DNA from: Chloroflexota bacterium
GTDB taxonomy: Bacteria; Chloroflexota; Dehalococcoidia; Bin125
Direction: 5' to 3'
NCBI GenBank assembly: GCA_009838915.1
Contig: VXQT01000019.1
Span: 1-64,000, forward strand
Length of the DNA: 64,000 nt
Of the stretch, positions 4,146 through 55,692 are shown piece by piece. Position 1 is the stretch's first letter; the number at the start of each line of letters is the position of its first letter. The position numbers and the translations under genes were made by a program. The notes beneath the pieces are model-generated. The model saw only the letters and a program-made list of their open reading frames with translations, was not told the DNA's origin and did no database searches.

Positions 4146-5816
4146 ATGCGCAACCAACCGGAACCGAGAAGCTACGAGTTGCTCGACCTCATCCGACGGG
4201 CGCTCGACGGAACCCTAGTCTTGCCTGAATTTCAGAGAGACTTCGTCTGGAAACCTACTGCGGTCAAGCTCCTACTATCTTCCGTTGCTAAGGGGTGGCC
4301 GATCGGCTCTTTCATGCTCTGGAGACCCGACGACTTTACAATGGCCGTCAAGGACTTTGACGGCGTTGGCACGACTCATGGTGAAGGAGACGATACTCCT
4401 ACGTACCTATTGGATGGACAGCAGCGGCTAACAGCGCTGATCCACGCCTTCGACCATCAACGAACAACGGTCAAGTACGTTCTCAGTGGTGCTGGCGAGT
4501 ATCTATTGGCAGACCTAGAAGGAAACATCGAAGACCTAGTCGACCACAGGACCGAGAAGCAATTCGGGCGGGGCTTAACTACCACCAAAGGAAGAGCAAG
4601 AGAAGACATTGCACTCATCGAGGACATCGTTGATGACGGCAGATTCTCTCAGTGGGTAGAAGATTACTTCGACACCCACAAACTCGACTCAAGCAAGAAG
4701 CCAATACTGTTTGAACGACGCGCTGCACGACTCCCGGGCCTGAGGGCTTACTCTGTACCTGCAGTTGAGCTTGCGTCGACCCTAGACTTGGAAGCTGTAG
4801 CGAGGATTTTTGAGACTACGAACAAGACAGGAGTGAAGCTAAGCACAGTCGATCTTATGACAGCAAGGCTGTACCCGGCCGATTTCCGCCTTCGTGATGA
4901 GTGGACCGAGGTTCAAGAGCGGACCTACCCGATGGTCGGCCAGAACTTCTCTGACACTATCGATGCTGAGGATGTGCTTCGGATTCTTGCCTATTGGAGC
5001 ACTGATGGTGCTGGTGTGACCAGGGAACGAATACTCAAGTTGAGTCCAGATTTTGTCAAGATGCAGTGGGCAAGAGGAGTCAGCGCCCTCGGGGAAGCAA
5101 TGACACTACTTTCGGAGGTCATGGGCGTAGTGCAAGGCAGTTTGTTGCCCGCCCGGTTGATGGTGCTGCCTGTCGCGGTCGCACTGGATGCGGCGGGTGA
5201 GGGTGATGCCGCAAAGGCCGTTGACCGGGAAGACTTGCGGAACATGCTTGAGTCTTGGTTCTGGCGCGCGATCATTGATGAGACATTCGCTCGGTCAACC
5301 AACACGCGGGCGATAGGCCAGGCGAAGGAGCTAGTTCGGAGAGTAGAAGAACAGCAGTATTCGATGCAATCGGTGCTCAACGAAGAAGCTGCTAGCGGTC
5401 TCATTGATCGTCTGATTGATCCTAAGGCGTCCGATGGATTGCTAGAGGCCGCGGCACATGCCCTTGTGGTTGCTGCCGACGGTCAGGATTGGAAGGCAGA
5501 CGAGAAACCGCTTCGTGAGAAGGCTGGAACGCTGGAGAAGCACCACATCGTTCCAAGGGAAGGAGAGGGCGTGGAAGGATGGGAGAAGGTTAACTGCATC
5601 GCCAACATGACCCCGCAGTCGAAGGAGAGCAACATAGAGTTAGGAAAGAAGCTCCCTGGAGAGGCAGGAGTGGCTGGAAAACTGTTAGGTCCGCACTTTT
5701 GTGATGTGGGAGAACTTGGTCAAGTCGGCCATGACGGCTTCGACAGTTTCGTCTCGCGTCGTGCCAGGGAGATTGCAAGCGCTCTCATTGCGAAGGCCAA
5801 AAGGGATACGCCTTAG
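4146..5816 (+). CDS. DUF262 (GmrSD-type) protein with C-terminal HNH-like nuclease module
   Basis: A 556-residue protein. The N-terminal DUF262/ParB-like domain has PEFQRDFVW and DGQQRLTAL, the motifs that bind and hydrolyse nucleotide in GmrSD-type modification-dependent restriction enzymes. The C-terminus (about residues 465-500) has KHHIVPREG followed by NCIANMTPQSKESN, an HNH/DUF1524-like nuclease signature. This arrangement fits a single-chain type IV restriction or anti-phage enzyme cutting modified DNA. Base composition is foreign: sampled rows are about 50-52% G+C against about 70% in the next gene, so horizontal gain is likely. AGGAGG lies 12 bases before the ATG, inside a TAGGA/TCCTA inverted repeat. 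No partner methylase, integrase or second defence gene is next to it. Confidence 0.85.
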   Translation: MRNQPEPRSYELLDLIRRALDGTLVLPEFQRDFVWKPTAVKLLLSSVAKGWPIGSFMLWRPDDFTMAVKDFDGVGTTHGEGDDTPTYLLDGQQRLTALIHAFDHQRTTVKYVLSGAGEYLLADLEGNIEDLVDHRTEKQFGRGLTTTKGRAREDIALIEDIVDDGRFSQWVEDYFDTHKLDSSKKPILFERRAARLPGLRAYSVPAVELASTLDLEAVARIFETTNKTGVKLSTVDLMTARLYPADFRLRDEWTEVQERTYPMVGQNFSDTIDAEDVLRILAYWSTDGAGVTRERILKLSPDFVKMQWARGVSALGEAMTLLSEVMGVVQGSLLPARLMVLPVAVALDAAGEGDAAKAVDREDLRNMLESWFWRAIIDETFARSTNTRAIGQAKELVRRVEEQQYSMQSVLNEEAASGLIDRLIDPKASDGLLEAAAHALVVAADGQDWKADEKPLREKAGTLEKHHIVPREGEGVEGWEKVNCIANMTPQSKESNIELGKKLPGEAGVAGKLLGPHFCDVGELGQVGHDGFDSFVSRRAREIASALIAKAKRDTP

Positions 5817-5827
5817 ACTTCCAAGCC

Positions 5828-7066
5828 ATGCCACCCTTGACTGAACTCCGCGTCATTGACCATGGGCATGTGTGGGCGGGGCCCCTCCTCGGCATGTTCC
5901 TCGCCGATCTTGGAGCTGAGGTGATCAAGGTGGGGGCGCCTCACCGACGGTCGGGTGTATCGATTGGCGGGGCGCAGGCGCCGGTAGGGTCGATTGGCGG
6001 CGATCGCGGCTCGACCTCGGCGGACGATCCGCGGGCGTTTCATGGGCTCGACCGGGGCAAGAAGTCGATCTCGATTCACCTCGGCGACCCGCGCGGCAAA
6101 GCGCTGTACCTGCGGCTGGTTGAACAGTCGGACGTCGTGCTGGAGAACTTCTCGCCGCGCGTGATGCCCTCGCTGGGGCTGTCCTACGACGTGCTCTCCG
6201 AGGTCAACCCGCGGATCATCATGGTGGCGCTCTCGGCCTCAGGCGCGACCGAGGGTCCCTGGCGCAACCTGGTCACCTACGGACCGTCGCTGGCGGCGCT
6301 TTACGGGCTCAAGTCGCTGCTCGGATATCCTGACGATCCGCAGCCGCGCGAGGACACGGCCGACCTTGACCCGACCGCGGCCGGGCACGCGTTCGTGGCG
6401 CTGCTGGCCGCGCTTGAGTACCGCGATCGCACGGGTCGCGGGCAGTTCATCGACTTGGCGCAGGGCGAGGCGACCCTGCAGCGCGCCGCCGCGCCGCTGA
6501 TGGACTGGCTCTTGAACGGTCGTGACTCGAAGCCGCGCGGCAATCGCGGGTCGTCGATGGCGCCCCACGGCGTGTACCCGGCGGCGAACGACGACGCCTG
6601 GCTGGCCGTCGTGGTGCGCACAGATGCGGAGTGGTCGGCGCTCTGCGCGCTGTCCTTGCATCTCGACCGGACCGAGTGGCGGACGATGCGCGGGCGGCTG
6701 GCAGACCAGGATGCGCTGGACGAAGCAGTCTCGGCCTGGACGCGCAATCACGACGCGATGGAGCTGAGCATCGAGCTGCAGGGGCGCGGCGTACCGGCCT
6801 TCCCGCTGATGGATCCGACTTTGCTGCTGATCGACGAGGACTACGCGGCGCTCTCGTACGCCGGCCTGGATCTGCGCGCGGATGTCGCCGCCCCGCTGCG
6901 GGACGGGGCGCTCTACACGGGCGCGCCCTGGAAACTGTCCCGGACTCCGGCTGCGATTGCGGGGCCGGTGCCCAATCGGGGCGAGCATGACGACGAGATC
7001 TACGGCGACCTGCTCGGCCTCGACGAAGCAGCCCGCGTCGAGTTGCGCGAGGCCGGTGTCATCTAA
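5828..7066 (+). CDS. CaiB/BaiF family III CoA-transferase
   Basis: A 412-residue full-length class III CoA-transferase, which moves CoA between a CoA thioester and a free acid through Asp-bound intermediates. N-terminal RVIDHGHVWAGPLLGMFLADLGAEVIKV, the ENFSPRVM segment, and GRGQFIDLAQ are family landmarks. The likely catalytic Asp is in TADLDPTAAGHAF, immediately before the conserved GxxA helix. A Gly/Arg/Asp-rich insert (about residues 45-65) is longer than usual. Substrate unknown. It begins 11 bases after the foreign DUF262 gene. Confidence 0.9.
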   Translation: MPPLTELRVIDHGHVWAGPLLGMFLADLGAEVIKVGAPHRRSGVSIGGAQAPVGSIGGDRGSTSADDPRAFHGLDRGKKSISIHLGDPRGKALYLRLVEQSDVVLENFSPRVMPSLGLSYDVLSEVNPRIIMVALSASGATEGPWRNLVTYGPSLAALYGLKSLLGYPDDPQPREDTADLDPTAAGHAFVALLAALEYRDRTGRGQFIDLAQGEATLQRAAAPLMDWLLNGRDSKPRGNRGSSMAPHGVYPAANDDAWLAVVVRTDAEWSALCALSLHLDRTEWRTMRGRLADQDALDEAVSAWTRNHDAMELSIELQGRGVPAFPLMDPTLLLIDEDYAALSYAGLDLRADVAAPLRDGALYTGAPWKLSRTPAAIAGPVPNRGEHDDEIYGDLLGLDEAARVELREAGVI

Positions 7067-7075
7067 CCCCACCCA

Positions 7076-7125
7076 CTCTCCCCCCGCGGGGCGGGGGGAG
7101 ATGTCGCGTAGCGACAGAGGGGGCG
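7076..7125 (+). repeat. Dispersed two-hairpin palindromic repeat, copy 1
   Basis: An intergenic element made of a CTCCCCCCGC / GCGGGGGGAG hairpin followed by TGTCGC-GTA-GCGACA and ending CAGAGGGGGCG. A second copy in opposite orientation lies at 43899-43944, where the second hairpin has different bases but still pairs. It sits between a CoA-transferase gene and the dienelactone hydrolase gene. No coding potential is seen. It resembles REP-type palindromes of high-G+C genomes. Confidence 0.7.
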
Positions 7126-7183
7126 CCTCCACCGCCAGCGGTTATCCTCGCAAGGCTGATCGCATCCAGAGAGGACTCCCAAG

Positions 7184-7942
7184 ATGTGCCACCGATATGA
7201 TGCGCTGCCCGCGATCCCGCCGATCGCCGGGGCGGCGGTTGACGTTGAAGACCTGACCCTGACCGCGTCCGACGGGACCGACTTCGCCGCCTTTCACGCG
7301 CGGGCCGAATCGCCCACGGGACCGGGCATGGTGATCCTGCCTGACGTGCGCGGCCTGTTCCGCTTCTACGAGGAACTGGCGATCCGCTTCGCCGAGGTCG
7401 GCGTCGACGCCGTGGCGATTGACTACTTCGGCCGCACGGCCGGCAACTCGAAGCGTGACGCCGAGTTCGACTTCTGGCCCCACGTCCGCAGCACAACGGC
7501 CGACGGCATCGCCGCCGACACCGCGGCCGCCGTGGCCGTGCTGCGCGCCAACAATCCCGACCGTGCCGTCTTCACGGTCGGTTTCTGCTTCGGCGGCAGC
7601 AATAGCTGGCTGCAGGCCTCCTCCGGACACGGACTGGCGGGCGCGATCGGCTTCTACGGACGCCCGACCGCCGAGGGCCTCAACGGCGCGCCCGCACCCT
7701 CGGCCACTGTCTCCGAGATTACGTGCCCGATCCTGGGCCTGATGGGCGGCGCGGACGAGAGTATCCCGGCCGAAGCGGTCGCCGAGTGGGACTCCGCGCT
7801 TGCAGCAGGCGGCGTCACGCGTGAGATCGTCACCTACGACGGCGCTCCGCACAGCTTCTTCGATCGCACCTACGACGAGCACGTCGACGCCTGTAACGAC
7901 GCCTGGCAACGGATCCAGGCCTTCATCGCAGCCAACAGCTAG
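7184..7942 (+). CDS. Dienelactone hydrolase family protein
   Basis: A 252-residue alpha/beta hydrolase. The nucleophile elbow GFCFGG carries Cys135 instead of Ser, as in dienelactone hydrolases that open the enol-lactone in chlorocatechol or aromatic ring breakdown. The acid residue is probably Asp in GGADESIP and the base His in GAPHSFFDR. VILPDVRGL is the oxyanion-hole strand. AGAGGA ribosome site is 10 bases upstream. The cupin gene follows by 39 bases on the same strand. The true substrate may be other than dienelactone. Confidence 0.9.
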   Translation: MCHRYDALPAIPPIAGAAVDVEDLTLTASDGTDFAAFHARAESPTGPGMVILPDVRGLFRFYEELAIRFAEVGVDAVAIDYFGRTAGNSKRDAEFDFWPHVRSTTADGIAADTAAAVAVLRANNPDRAVFTVGFCFGGSNSWLQASSGHGLAGAIGFYGRPTAEGLNGAPAPSATVSEITCPILGLMGGADESIPAEAVAEWDSALAAGGVTREIVTYDGAPHSFFDRTYDEHVDACNDAWQRIQAFIAANS

Positions 7943-49418: not shown

Positions 49419-51752
49419 CTATCGCGGACTGATCGGGCGCGGCGCGGGCTCTCCGGGGACGCGCCTGTCGGTCAGGCCGGCGATCACCTCGTCGGCAAGC
49501 AGCCGCTCGATGCGCTCAGCCTCGTAGCCGAGCGTCTCCGACAGGATCTCAACGGTGTGCTCACCCAGTCTTGGCGCCGGCCGATCACATGTCGCCGGCC
49601 GTCGCCGAAGCCGCCAGGGGAATCCCTGGTACTGGCGTGTGCCCGTGTCGGGGTGCGCCAGGTACAACCACCAGTTGCGCGCGGCCAGGTGGGGGTCTCG
49701 CAGGTGAGTCAACGTTGAGTGCACTGCTGCCGCCGGCACGCCGATGCGCTGCAACCGGTGCTGCAATGTATGCGCGTTCCAGTTCCGCGTCCACGCCGTC
49801 AACTCCTGTTCAAGCGCGGCTTCGCAGTCCTTCCGACCGGCCGAGGTGCGCCACTCCGGGCGATCCAGGTCGGCAAACCCGGCCAACCGAAGCCAGGTCG
49901 CGTCGTCGGGGACGGAAATCGCGATCCACTCGTCGCGCCCGTCGACGGCGTCGGCGCAGCGGAAACACTCGTGCGGCGCGGCGCCCGGGACGCGGTTCCC
50001 GTTGCGCTCGGGCATCTGCTCACCGGCCGAGGCGGCCAGCAGGTACTCGTCGATGTAGGCGACGGCGGACTCGAACATCGAGCCCTCGACATGAATCGAA
50101 GCCCGCCCGTTCTGCGCAGCGAGCACCGCCGCCAGCGCCGCCGCCGCCATTTGCGCACCGACGATCGGATCGGCCTGCATCGTGCCCAGCATCAGCGGCG
50201 CTTCGCCTGCGTAGCCGTAGAGCAGGTCCCAGCCGGCGTTGCCCTCGGTCGTCCCGCCATTGGCGCGGAAGTTGTCGTAGGGACCTCCGGTGCCGAATCC
50301 CGAGAACGAGACCAGCGCAATTTGCGGATTCACCTCGCGCATGTGCGCGTGCGTGAGGCGCAGATTCTCCAGCACCCGCGGACGGAAGTTCTCCAGCACG
50401 ACATCGGCGCGCGCGACCAGGTCGAGCGCGATCTCGCGTCCCTGATCGGTGTCAAGCGCGACTGATACCGTGCGCTTGCCTCGATTGGCCATGTTGAAGT
50501 TGGGCCGCACGTTGAGCGGATGCGCGTCCGGCGACACGACACGCATCGGCTCGGCCGCGTCGTAGCGCCAGAGGTCGGGACGCTTCGGTCCCTCGACCTT
50601 GATCACCTCCGCGCCAAGATCGCTCAAGAGCGTCGTCGCATACGGACCCAGCCATGCGTGGGTGAAGTCAACCACCCGCAGACCGTCCAACGGACCTGTG
50701 CTCGACTGCGGACGCGCCCGCTGTGCGAATCGGTCAGCCCGAGGCACATCGTCCTCGTGCTTCGTCACCCGCATCGCCCGACCGGCGCCGGTCAGCTCTT
50801 GCTCCTCGTGGAAGAATCTGATCGCATTGAGCTGCGGATCCTCCATCAACTGACGCGCCGAGCGATGCATCGCCATCACCGAGCCCAGCTCGGACAGTTT
50901 GGTCCAGATCGCCGCGGCGTCCAGCGACTCGACAATCGGCTGCACGTATGCCTTCGACGGCTCCTGCTCGGCGAACCTGGTCTCCCCTTCCAGCAGTTCG
51001 GCCGGCGGCGGCTCGACGCCGAAGGCGATTGGCAGATTGCGCAGCGTCTCCTTGGACCAGGGTGAGAGCGTGATGTAGCCGTCGGCGGTTTGGATCACTT
51101 CCGCCCAGCCCGGGGTGCCGCCGACCCGGGGCAACGCTTCGCCCGAGAACTCCGAGCGCAGCGACATGATCAGCGTCGAGCAAGCTTCCAGCGAGGACAA
51201 CTCGATCCACTCGCCGCGGCCCGAGTGCAGCCGATCGAGCAGCGCCGCCAGCGCGGCGACCGCGCCAAGGATGCCGACCGCGCGCGGGATGATCGCGGCC
51301 GGCGCGGCCAGCGGCTCACGTCCCGCCAGTCCATTGGTACCCATGAATCCCGCCAGCGCCTGCACGATCAGGTCGTCAGCCAGGAAGTCCGCATAGGGCC
51401 CGTCCGTGCCGAACGGGGATGCGTGGACGACGATGAGCGCCGGAGATTCCTCGGCAATGCCGCCAAGCTCGTCGAGCGGCGCGTCGCTGATCAGCACATC
51501 GGCATCCAACAGTTCCGAGCGCCAGTCGCCGGCACCCATCGTCTTGCCGATCATCAGCGAGTGACGCAGCAGCGAATACGGCTCGCCGTCACGCTCGATG
51601 AGCGGCGGCGCGGCGCGCAGGCGGGAGTCCGGCGCTTCAAAGCAATGCACGTCCGCGCCCCAGCGGGCGAACTCGCGGGCGCAGGCGGCTGCCGGGATGT
51701 CGCGGCTGTATTCGACGACCCGCAGGCCCCGGAGCAGGTCCCCCTCGCTCAC
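49419..51752 (-). CDS. Double-domain CaiB/BaiF CoA-transferase
   Basis: A 777-residue chain with two class III CoA-transferase domains. The first (about 8-350) begins LLRGLRVVEYSRDIPAAACAREFARWGADV, the second (about 365-777) begins PLDGLRVVDFTHAWLGPYATTLLSDLGAEVIKVEGP. The Asp expected before the GxxA helix is present in the second (ADPIVGAQMA) but replaced in the first (IIPRAVGILGA), so only one half may be catalytic. The real start is the GTG after the hydratase gene; the same frame continues upstream only as a shadow. Fourteen bases follow the enoyl-CoA hydratase gene. Confidence 0.88.
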   Translation of the reverse strand: MSEGDLLRGLRVVEYSRDIPAAACAREFARWGADVHCFEAPDSRLRAAPPLIERDGEPYSLLRHSLMIGKTMGAGDWRSELLDADVLISDAPLDELGGIAEESPALIVVHASPFGTDGPYADFLADDLIVQALAGFMGTNGLAGREPLAAPAAIIPRAVGILGAVAALAALLDRLHSGRGEWIELSSLEACSTLIMSLRSEFSGEALPRVGGTPGWAEVIQTADGYITLSPWSKETLRNLPIAFGVEPPPAELLEGETRFAEQEPSKAYVQPIVESLDAAAIWTKLSELGSVMAMHRSARQLMEDPQLNAIRFFHEEQELTGAGRAMRVTKHEDDVPRADRFAQRARPQSSTGPLDGLRVVDFTHAWLGPYATTLLSDLGAEVIKVEGPKRPDLWRYDAAEPMRVVSPDAHPLNVRPNFNMANRGKRTVSVALDTDQGREIALDLVARADVVLENFRPRVLENLRLTHAHMREVNPQIALVSFSGFGTGGPYDNFRANGGTTEGNAGWDLLYGYAGEAPLMLGTMQADPIVGAQMAAAALAAVLAAQNGRASIHVEGSMFESAVAYIDEYLLAASAGEQMPERNGNRVPGAAPHECFRCADAVDGRDEWIAISVPDDATWLRLAGFADLDRPEWRTSAGRKDCEAALEQELTAWTRNWNAHTLQHRLQRIGVPAAAVHSTLTHLRDPHLAARNWWLYLAHPDTGTRQYQGFPWRLRRRPATCDRPAPRLGEHTVEILSETLGYEAERIERLLADEVIAGLTDRRVPGEPAPRPISPR

Positions 51753-51766
51753 CGCCGCCGACTCCG

Positions 51767-52594
51767 TCAGTCCTGGCGCGGACGCGGCCAGGGCTTGAGC
51801 TTGGCCAGCGCCTGGGCGACCGGGGAGAGCTGGCGCTTGCCCTTGACCATGCGCGGGTCGGGCTGTCCAAAGCGCGCGCCCACGGCATAAGTCATGAAAC
51901 TGGCGTTGATGTGCGTGGTGAAGCCCTGGCCGTCCTGCATGTTGTTGATCGAGTGCTTGATCTGGCGCAGCACCATCGGCGTGCGCTCGGCCACTTCGCG
52001 GGCGTACTCCAGCGTCTTCCGCTCCAGCACGTCGGCCGGATAGACCTGGTTGACGAAGCCCAGCTCCTTCGCCTCCTGCGCCGGAATAAACCGGTTCTGG
52101 AACAGGATCTCCTTCGCCTTGCGCACGCCCAGGTCCCAGGGCGCGGAGAAGTACTGCGTGTGCGAGGGCAGGAACAGCGCGTCGTCGGAGGCGAAGATCA
52201 GGTCCATCGAGGCAGCCACCATCCAGCCGCCGAAGATGCACTTGCCGTGGACCATCGCGATCGTCGGCTTGGGAATGTTGCGCCAGCGCATCGTGTTCGT
52301 GATCCGCGTGTCGCGCTGGCGGTCGTAGACGCCGACGAAGTCCTCGTCCCAGCCGCGAATCTCGCGGTCGGCCAACTCGGGCGGCGAGCCAAGGTCGTGC
52401 CCGGCGGAGAAGTCGGGTCCGTTGCCCGAGAGCACGATCACCAGCACCTCGGGATCGTCAACCGCCTCCTGGAAGGCGGCATCGATCTCCTCCAGCAACA
52501 ACCGCGACTGGGCATTGCGGTACTCGGGCCGATTCATGATCACCCGGGCCACCGGACCCGGTTCGTAGATCACCTCGTGGTAGGTCACTGGCAT
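51767..52594 (-). CDS. Enoyl-CoA hydratase/isomerase family protein
   Basis: A 275-residue crotonase-fold enzyme: SGNGPDFSAGHDLG and TIAMVHGKCIFGGWMVAASMDLIFAS are the oxyanion-hole strands. The usual active-site Glu positions are replaced in DALFLPSHTQYFSAPWDLG, so it may act as a different crotonase type (decarboxylase, hydrolase) rather than a hydratase. Transcribed with the double CoA-transferase 14 bases downstream; together they could activate and modify an acyl-CoA. Confidence 0.88.
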   Translation of the reverse strand: MPVTYHEVIYEPGPVARVIMNRPEYRNAQSRLLLEEIDAAFQEAVDDPEVLVIVLSGNGPDFSAGHDLGSPPELADREIRGWDEDFVGVYDRQRDTRITNTMRWRNIPKPTIAMVHGKCIFGGWMVAASMDLIFASDDALFLPSHTQYFSAPWDLGVRKAKEILFQNRFIPAQEAKELGFVNQVYPADVLERKTLEYAREVAERTPMVLRQIKHSINNMQDGQGFTTHINASFMTYAVGARFGQPDPRMVKGKRQLSPVAQALAKLKPWPRPRQD

Positions 52595-53509: not shown

Positions 53510-54568
53510 ATGGCGTTCGAGTACGCGGGCATCGACTTGCCGATTCGAGAGAAGACGATCGCGTCCCAGCGAATGAGTTGGGAGATGATCGCCCGTCCGG
53601 GCCGCTGGTGGACCGGCGCGGAGCGGGTCGAAATCGCCCGAATCGGTCGCGCCGCCCGAGAGCTCGAGGCCGTTGGCAGCGAGCTGCTTCCTGAAGCGGC
53701 CGTCTACGCGATCCAGAAGCTGGTAGTCGACAACGCCAATCTCAATCGCGAGTTCTACGCGGAGGTCGTCGCCGCCGAGGGCATGACCGAGGATCGCTAC
53801 GTCGAGCTGGTCGCGGTGGTCGTGCACTCGCTCTCGATCGACGAGTTTCATCGCGCCCTGGGAATCGAACCGGAACCGCTGCCGGAACCGATCGCCGGCG
53901 AGCCGAGCAGGCAGCGGCCCGCGCTGGCCGAACAGCGCGACTCCTGGCCGCCGCTCGTGCCCAGGCAGGGTCTCAACCGGGGCGATGACGTGTTCTACGG
54001 ACCACTCGAGTGGGGCGCCAACGTGATCTCGGCGCTCTCGCTCGTGCCCGAGAACGTGCGTTGGCTGCACGATCTCTCCGAGGGTCACTACCTGTCCTTT
54101 GCAGAGATGCGGCAGCCCGACCCGCTGCGCGCGATCTCGCGGCCGCAGATCGAGTTGATCGCGTCACGTGTCTCGGCGCTCAACGAGTGCTTCTATTGAA
54201 CTGCCTCGCATGTACGCATGCTCCGTGAGAGCAGCAAACGCAACGGCAGCCTGGACAGCCTCAATCTGCAAGGCGCGGTCGGCCCCGAGGCCGATTCCGG
54301 CGTGCCGCACGGCGACCTGCTGACCGCCTTTGCCGAGGCTGCCGTCCGCCGGACTGACGCGCTGCCCGGTCTGCGCGAGCGGATCGCAGCGGAACTCGGT
54401 GTGCAGGAATTGGTCGATGCTGCGGGAGTTGTGGCCAACTTTCAACGCATGGTCCGCATCGCAGACGGCTGCGGCATCCCGCTCGACGAGCTCACCAGGG
54501 ACGCCACCGACGACGTGCGCGATGAACTCGGCCTGCATGAGTATGCTTCGGCTGCGAACACCGCATAA
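53510..54568 (+). CDS. AhpD-like alkylhydroperoxidase with in-frame TGA (selenoprotein candidate), copy 1
   Basis: One frame of 352 codons is interrupted only by TGA at 54197-54199 (codon 230) and ends with TAA. Around it the sequence reads ELIASRVSALNECFY-U-TASHVRMLRESS: Glu215, Cys227, Sec230 and His234 have exactly the spacing of AhpD Glu118, Cys130, Cys133 and His137, so the TGA stands at the peroxidatic Cys. Downstream residues (VANFQRMVRIADGCGIPLD) are typical carboxymuconolactone-decarboxylase/AhpD family sequence. The N-terminal half (about 1-150) looks like a second AhpD-like domain without CxxC. Role inferred: thiol/selenol-dependent peroxide reduction. Thirty-five bases before its paralogue. 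Confidence 0.82.
54219..54233 (+). promoter_or_regulatory. Candidate bacterial SECIS hairpin, copy 1
   Basis: TGCTC-CGTGA-GAGCA forms a 5-bp stem with a five-base loop whose second and third bases are G and T. The loop begins after exactly 24 bases following the TGA. In the bacterial SECIS model as I recall it, a stem of at least four pairs and a G in the first two loop bases lie about 16-37 bases after the UGA; this fits. Confidence 0.6.
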
Positions 54569-54603
54569 CCGCACAGGGCAACGAGCACCGACAGGAGCCA
54601 GCC

Positions 54604-55692
54604 ATGACGACGACGACCTTCCCGTTCGCCTACGCCACGACCGACTGGCCCGTGCTGGAGCGCATGGCCGAGGCGCATCGCCGCAGTTGGGCCATGCTGG
54701 CCGCCCCGGGCGAATGGTGGACGGGCGCTCAGCGAGTCAGCATCGCGGCCGAGTGCCGCCGCGCATCGGCTCTGGTCGACGGCCTGCCCGATCCCGGGCC
54801 TGGTCCGGCCGCATTGTCCGAGGCTGCCCTATTCGCTGTTCACAAGCTGATCGGCGATCTGCCAAACGTCACCCGAGAGTGGTACGACGAGACGATCAGC
54901 GCCGAAGGCATGTCCGACACCCACTACATCGAGCTGTTGGGCGTCGTCGTGCATATTTGGTCAGTGGACGAGTTTCATCGCGCACTGGACATCGAACTGG
55001 AACCGTTGCCGGCTCCCATCCCGGGCGAGCCGACGCGCATTCGTCCCCTGGGCGCGAAGCCGCACGGCAGTTGGCCGGCCACCATCCGCCCGGGAGATCT
55101 GGGCGAAACTGAAGCCGATATCTACGGCGGCGCAGAGTACGCGGCCAACGTCCGCGCCGCGATGAGCCTGCATCCCGACAGTGTGCGCTGGCTGAGCGAT
55201 CTGTTCGACGCTCACTACCTGAGCTGGATCGAAATCGGAGGAGAGCAAGAGCCCTTCCGAGTGCTCACGCGTCCGCAGCGCGAACTGGTCGCGGCGCGGG
55301 TCTCGGCCCTGAACGAGTGCTTCTATTGAACGATTTCCCACGTGATGCTGCTCGGTCGGAGCAGCGAAGAGCACAGCGCGTTGAACCTGAATGGCACCGT
55401 ACGTAACGACATCGATAGCGGCGTCGAGCACGGAGACGTGCTGTTGCGATACGCCGACGCCGCTGTCGGCCACACGCCCGATCTCGCTTCTTCGCGCGAG
55501 GCGCTCAACTCTTCGATGGGTCCGGACGCCGTCGTCGATTGCGCCGCGACGATCGCCAACTTCCAGCGCATGGTGCGCATTGCCGACGGTTGCGGCATCC
55601 CCCTGGACTCATTCTCCAGGCAAGAGTCCGCCAAGTGGAGAGACGACCTCGGCATCGATGGCTTCCGCAGCCGAGGCAACACCTTCGGCTAA
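54604..55692 (+). CDS. AhpD-like alkylhydroperoxidase with in-frame TGA (selenoprotein candidate), copy 2
   Basis: A 362-codon paralogue of the gene before it, again interrupted only by one TGA (55327-55329, codon 242) and ending in TAA. ELVAARVSALNECFY-U-TISHVMLLGRSS gives Glu227, Cys239, Sec242 and His246, the AhpD set. After the TGA the copies share SLNLxG/ALNLNG, SGVxHGD and an identical 17-residue NFQRMVRIADGCGIPLD, showing that the region is translated and under selection. CAGGAG ribosome site. The duplication is old, since the N-terminal halves differ at most positions outside WWTGA, EFHRAL and PGEP-type motifs. Seven bases from the convergent ribH. Confidence 0.82.
55347..55365 (+). 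promoter_or_regulatory. Candidate bacterial SECIS hairpin, copy 2
   Basis: GCTGCTC-GGTCG-GAGCAGC is a perfect 7-bp stem with loop GGTCG. The loop again starts after 24 bases following the TGA, the same as in copy 1. GGTC in the loop is what E. coli fdhF has in its SelB-binding hairpin, as I recall. The 3' arm GAGCAGC is identical in both copies. Confidence 0.65.

Follow-up and report, generated by a model that had tools for sequence, protein, structure and literature searches.

A tandem pair of AhpD-related genes of the NF041238 family in a Dehalococcoidia genome, with in-frame TGA codons very likely read as selenocysteine

The NCBIfam family NF041238 bears the name AhpD_rel_CFYUT, alkylhydroperoxidase-related (seleno)protein, and is equated in a recent review with the AhpD-related selenoprotein originally named "hypothetical protein 1" (PMC13188914, 2026), which was reported from a survey of the Sargasso Sea as a selenoprotein with a CxxU motif (Zhang 2005, PMC1088965). 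Among the AhpD-like proteins, whose substrates are mostly unknown, PA0269 is a Cys protein with the active site Glu36-Cys48-Tyr50-Cys51-His55 that reduces H2O2 measurably (PMC3141380). Sestrins are fusions of two AhpD-like domains, and two-domain bacterial analogues have been reported (PMC11429811, PMC4674687), including fused AhpD dimers in Corynebacterium and Comamonas (PMC11429811); the two-domain architecture is thus known in principle. Our literature search found no paper linking NF041238 to the two-AhpD-domain architecture of the sestrins.

We analyzed a stretch of 64,000 nucleotides ("the window": contig VXQT01000019.1, positions 1 to 64,000) from a Dehalococcoidia metagenome assembly of 2.87 Mb in 38 contigs, estimated to be 95% complete. 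Two genes, denoted here A and B, lie in tandem in the window (Table 1), with the start of gene B 35 nt past the stop of gene A and preceded by AGGAG. The initial annotation, made from the sequence alone, had proposed that both frames continue past a single TGA and end in TAA, that both show the E-x11-C-x-x-[TGA]-x3-H spacing, and that ordinary gene calling would report four short genes; all of this holds. The motif is E-x11-C-F-Y-[TGA]-T-x2-H in both genes, with TGA at the second Cys position of a CxxC-type motif, and standard ORF calling splits A into 229+116 aa and B into 241+116 aa. The two proteins are 50% identical, and GC3 is high both before and after the TGA. The description of the locus as a tandem two-domain pair was right as to the tandem arrangement, but each gene alone encodes a two-domain protein.

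Table 1. Coordinates of genes A and B, their in-frame TGA codons, and candidate bSECIS hairpins in the window
Feature	Start	End	Strand	Description
Gene A, AhpD-related probable selenoprotein (CFYUT)	53510	54568	+	352 aa, predicted Sec at residue 230; ATG 53510, TAA 54568, one in-frame TGA
Predicted Sec-TGA, gene A	54197	54199	+	TGA in 13/13 A orthologues
Candidate bSECIS hairpin, gene A	54216	54235	+	core stem UGCUC/GAGCA 54219-54233, loop CGUGA, bulged A, -8.5 kcal/mol
Gene B, AhpD-related probable selenoprotein (CFYUT)	54604	55692	+	362 aa, predicted Sec at residue 242; ATG 54604, TAA 55692, one in-frame TGA
Predicted Sec-TGA, gene B	55327	55329	+	TGA in 13/13 B orthologues
Candidate bSECIS hairpin, gene B	55347	55365	+	7 bp GCUGCUC/GAGCAGC, loop GGUCG, -13.7 kcal/mol, z -3.2

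Gene A matches NF041238 with 350.6 bits (1e-104, model positions 1-356 of 357) and gene B with 337.6 bits (9e-101, positions 3-357 of 357), the curated cut-off being 175 bits. Both proteins score above this cut-off over the full model and carry CFYUT with TGA at U, and on these grounds are assigned as further members of a selenoprotein family that is already catalogued. They also belong to the AhpD/CMD superfamily (PF02627), as indicated by the CMD domain with E-x11-CxxC/U-x3-H and by fold matches with Z up to 14.2, although the Pfam match is weak and located around the motif (28.9 bits for A and 23.8 for B, with a cut-off of 23). Neither is a canonical AhpD as represented by TIGR00777, against which A scores 12.5 bits (cut-off 191.95) and B gives no match. 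Elsewhere in the same genome (G000:C28:562936-563583), a single frame of 271 aa without TGA contains two CMD domains. A separate observation concerns another family of the class, where one locus (L086, G239:C22:15000-23702, positions 4248-7527, minus strand) carries four consecutive AhpD-like genes of TIGR01926, each 230-244 aa long and with one in-frame TGA (CRYUT, CRFUT, CRFUA, and CRYUT), that is, a four-gene selenoprotein array.

The initial annotation had made its selenoprotein proposal depend on selA, selB, selC, and selD, treating selB and selC as decisive. All four are present in the genome: tRNA-Sec (selC; 70.8 bits, UCA anticodon), selA (426 bits), selB (348 bits including neighbouring stretches), and selD (350 bits; G000:C24:22895-23836), the last of which is itself a Sec gene, with TGA in CGGUGSK. 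We also considered recoding of TGA throughout the genome, which is ruled out: TGA is the ordinary stop of ECH, ribH, ribE, and ribD adjoining the pair, and the code is therefore not altered as a whole.

Published limits for bSECIS hairpins are a loop of 3-9 nt with a G at one of its first two positions, a stem of 4-16 bp, a distance of 16-37 nt from the UGA, and an MFE of at most -7.5 (PMC13188914). The hairpins of A and B both lie within these limits, with 5-nt loops, stems of 5 bp (A) and 7 bp (B), and a distance of 24 nt from the UGA; the loop G occupies position 2 in A and position 1 in B. Taken alone, the gene A hairpin is marginally more stable than shuffled sequences (z -1.2), and codon-preserving shuffling gives a weak signal for the A types and a clear one for most B types. 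A hairpin with a GCUC/GAGC core and a 5-nt loop is shared by 63 distinct sequences drawn from three phyla, the departures from the core being rare G-U and two A-for-G replacements, and the loop G is invariant in all of them at position 29, counting from the U of UGA. In a set of 40 sequences, covariation exceeds the controls, with 16 double-change cells compared with 4.4 +/- 1.6 in shuffles and a score of 0.243 compared with 0.145, above both shuffles and slid controls; the clearest case is pair 22-38, which is CG in 29 sequences and AU in 5. Synonymous diversity reaches the gene minimum over each hairpin: 0.000 against a mean of 0.385 in A (0/20000 permutations) and 0.110 against 0.426 in B (p 0.0003). 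Rfam searches of the whole window and of the locus produced no match to the hairpin or to anything else.

In the class, NF041238 was found above the cut-off in 16/294 genomes, always with one in-frame TGA, and tRNA-Sec was detected in 15 of these 16 genomes compared with 10 of 18 family-negative ones; the single family-positive genome without tRNA-Sec is 88% complete and consists of 290 contigs. In a sample of Pseudomonadota (the phylum of G294), 57 of 379 genomes contain the family, with 93 matches that each have exactly one TGA, and in Myxococcota (the phylum of G296) the family occurs in 4/297 genomes, all with TGA; the codon is kept in 36/36 checked members from these two phyla. The residues E, C, Y, and H, together with the TGA, are invariant in 33 extracted members (A and B included). 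The TGA is thus kept in every sampled family member, across three phyla. Sec families usually include Cys forms. For NF041238, our four surveys yielded no Cys form among the matches above the cut-off, so that the argument from Sec/Cys pairing rests on the wider AhpD superfamily; the initial annotation had proposed to look for relatives with Cys at the TGA, and none was met inside the family in these surveys. In two genomes of the same genus as A and B (G161 and G223), no full-length NF041238 member was found.

These data bear on the possibility that the TGAs are real stops, in which case both proteins would be truncated and the downstream ORFs would be separate genes or decaying remnants, as the four called ORFs and the start codons past the TGA might suggest. 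Termination at these codons would cut the AhpD catalytic helix within the motif. Moreover, past the TGA, median dN and dS are 0.093 and 0.84 among 13 A orthologues and 0.133 and 0.95 among 13 B orthologues, near the values before the TGA; purifying selection acts on this part of both genes, and decay of the sequence after the TGA is ruled out because dN is well under dS there. The retention of TGA in all members met, without a Cys form, and the presence of the hairpin and of the Sec machinery also speak against real stops. At the level of sequence this reading is already refuted, and we assign it only a minimal probability. Insertion of Sec at the TGAs of A and B is very likely.

In the tree, the A sequences form one clade and the B sequences another, with 100/100 support for each, and the two clades differ in their N-termini. 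Within the genus, the pair is flanked by ribH/ribBA/ribE/ribD and by genes for an alpha/beta hydrolase, an enoyl-CoA hydratase, and a CoA transferase. Tree and gene order indicate that A and B are paralogues from an old duplication, at a locus conserved in this Dehalococcoidia genus. The TGAs of A and B are accordingly not independent, having been inherited by paralogous copies and then retained, so the initial argument that independent decay to TGA in two copies is very unlikely is weaker than stated. A tandem pair occurs in the sister genus G151 as well, with the first copy starting MAFEY like A and the second MTT like B; a clade of A with the first G151 copy is not rejected (p-AU 0.24), and the duplication is probably common to both genera by these sequence comparisons. 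Separate duplications in the two genera were considered as well, and a topology that unites the G151 copies is rejected by a narrow margin (p-AU 0.045). In two genomes (G054 and G215; loci L079 and L081), the C-terminal ends of A and B are almost identical (..QLGLHQYASAANT), which is not so in other pairs and suggests gene conversion within the tandem. One 782-aa frame at positions 49419-51767 of the window contains two copies of the CoA transferase family III domain. A phage origin was considered and rejected, with no match among phage records. The nearest relatives are Dehalococcoidia/Chloroflexi MAGs, several of which we take to be sponge-derived; the bacterium that carries A and B is probably sponge-associated too.

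The conservation of the arrangement raises the question of whether A and B are subunits of a heteromer, the tandem order reflecting a subunit pair and not simple redundancy. Most genomes of the genus keep the pair together at one locus, a pair is present in G151 too, A and B are distinct clades with different N-termini, and in another family of the class (G283) a second tandem copy begins after a Sec copy. On the other hand, B lies on another contig, apart from A, in one genome (G117), A was found and B was not in a second (G194), a third (G183) has an additional unlinked B copy, and the other NF041238 members in the Pseudomonadota sample are not same-strand neighbours. On this balance of sequence data, a heteromer is a tentative suggestion that we hold at less than even probability. 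Three adjacent NF041238 pairs on opposite strands were seen in the Pseudomonadota sample (G658:C80, G896:C267, and G856:C12), so that pairing of the genes recurs in another layout.

An AlphaFold2 model of A (pLDDT 92.5, pTM 0.92) predicts two AhpD domains in a sestrin-like, pseudo-twofold arrangement. The C-terminal half matches single-domain AhpD structures (6k40, 2oyo, and 2prr) with Z of about 14. Over the full length, human Sestrin2 is the top match (Z 17.7 over 236 residues at 3.2 A, residues 1-324); a model of a Pseudomonadota member gives the same order of matches, with Sestrin2 at Z 16.7. At the sequence level, no sestrin Pfam match was obtained for any of 24 members with E allowed up to 10, a search in which HMMER filters limit weak matches, and profile search of the PDB produced no sestrin match. 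The two halves are weakly similar by hhalign (local E 0.01; a global alignment, itself not significant, sets CALC against CFYC), so that the internal duplication is supported mainly by the fold. An N-terminal CxxC is present in 36/36 Pseudomonadota and Myxococcota members checked, and in the Pseudomonadota model it sits in the turn that joins helices 34-49 and 51-58, just as CFYU sits in the turn that joins helices 226-239 and 243-259. This CxxC is missing in both A and B but is kept in the second copies of G151 and G283. A speculative scenario, which as a whole we consider rather unlikely, is that NF041238 is a near-obligate Sec branch of fused AhpD dimers of sestrin type, with an N-domain CxxC and a C-domain CxxU at equivalent helix-turn-helix positions as the ancestral state, and that the Chloroflexota tandem duplicates both lost the N-site, becoming a two-subunit Sec enzyme in need of a new reductant.

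The C-terminal site of A and B equals that of PA0269 with Sec in place of the second Cys and retains the full AhpD proton-relay set of E, C, Y, U, and H. We consider it highly probable that A and B are paralogous NF041238 selenoproteins in which Sec insertion is driven by SelB and the hairpin and which would follow an AhpD-type selenenylsulfide cycle. The two genes would probably be transcribed on a joint mRNA, given the gap between them; SelB with Sec-tRNA would bind the hairpin ~24 nt past each UGA, so that Sec is inserted without a stop. In the C-terminal domain, Sec would be the hydroperoxide-reacting position of the E-x11-C-x-Y-U-x3-H proton-relay site. In the most likely cycle, Sec would attack a hydroperoxide or a disulfide, the Cys three residues ahead would resolve the intermediate into a selenenylsulfide, and a cellular dithiol would re-reduce it. 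Members that have the N-terminal CxxC could conceivably use an internal relay; in A and B, whose N-terminal domain lacks it, re-reduction would be external or performed by a partner subunit.

Homology to AhpD somewhat favors hydroperoxide reduction, the activity that the initial annotation had considered likely, as the reaction. The proteins might instead be selenoproteins but not peroxidases, namely thiol-disulfide oxidoreductases, adaptors serving to reduce a second enzyme (in the way AhpD serves AhpC), or catalysts of another CMD-fold reaction, of which the debromination carried out reductively by Bmp8 is an example. The fold matches include the Bmp8 debrominase (Z 13.5), the genes next to the pair include no peroxiredoxin, and the scarcity of established substrates among AhpD-like proteins (PMC3141380) leaves room for such activities; the complete proton-relay set and the measurable H2O2 reduction by PA0269, with the same Tyr variant and Cys (PMC3141380), weigh against them, and we regard a non-peroxidase function as possible but not the expected outcome. 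By analogy, A and B are best read as selenenylsulfide-cycling hydroperoxide or thiol oxidoreductases.

With high confidence, the analysis supports two selenoprotein genes, each of them split by standard annotation. The scarcely described NF041238 is Sec-only in all members sampled, which is unusual among Sec families, and its link to the two-AhpD-domain sestrin architecture bears on the question of bacterial sestrin precursors; a conserved locus with adjacent Sec paralogues offers a clean system for asking why Sec is kept.

Compared with known systems, A and B agree with NF041238 and the Sargasso Sea "hypothetical protein 1" in the full-length match, the CFYUT motif, the Sec position, and the length of ~350 aa. 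They differ in being two same-strand tandem paralogues and in lacking the N-terminal CxxC of the 36 Pseudomonadota and Myxococcota members checked, which is no bar to membership since it is not known as part of the family definition. With Mycobacterium tuberculosis AhpD and P. aeruginosa PA0269 they share the E-x11-C-x-x-C/U-x3-H helix-turn-helix site, including the Tyr of PA0269, but carry Sec for the second Cys and an additional N-terminal domain. CxxU selenoforms are known among the AhpD-like 1/TIGR01926 peroxidase-related proteins, and 2oyo, 2prr, and 6k40 are the nearest solved relatives of the C-terminal domain in both sequence and fold; those proteins, however, are single-domain and ~190 aa long, and A and B score below the TIGR01926 cut-off. 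Like Sestrin2 and the bacterial fused AhpD dimers (PMC11429811), A is predicted to combine two AhpD domains in one chain, at ~10% identity to Sestrin2. In Sestrin the catalytic Cys is in the N-terminal domain and the C-terminal helix-turn-helix is replaced by an acidic hinge, whereas in the model of A the C-terminal helices 211-224/228-244 are intact with CFYU and Sec in the site, and the N-terminal domain of both A and B is without CxxC. What is added here to the known family is the tandem pair, the Sec-only distribution in the sample, and a predicted sestrin-like fold with a lost N-terminal site.
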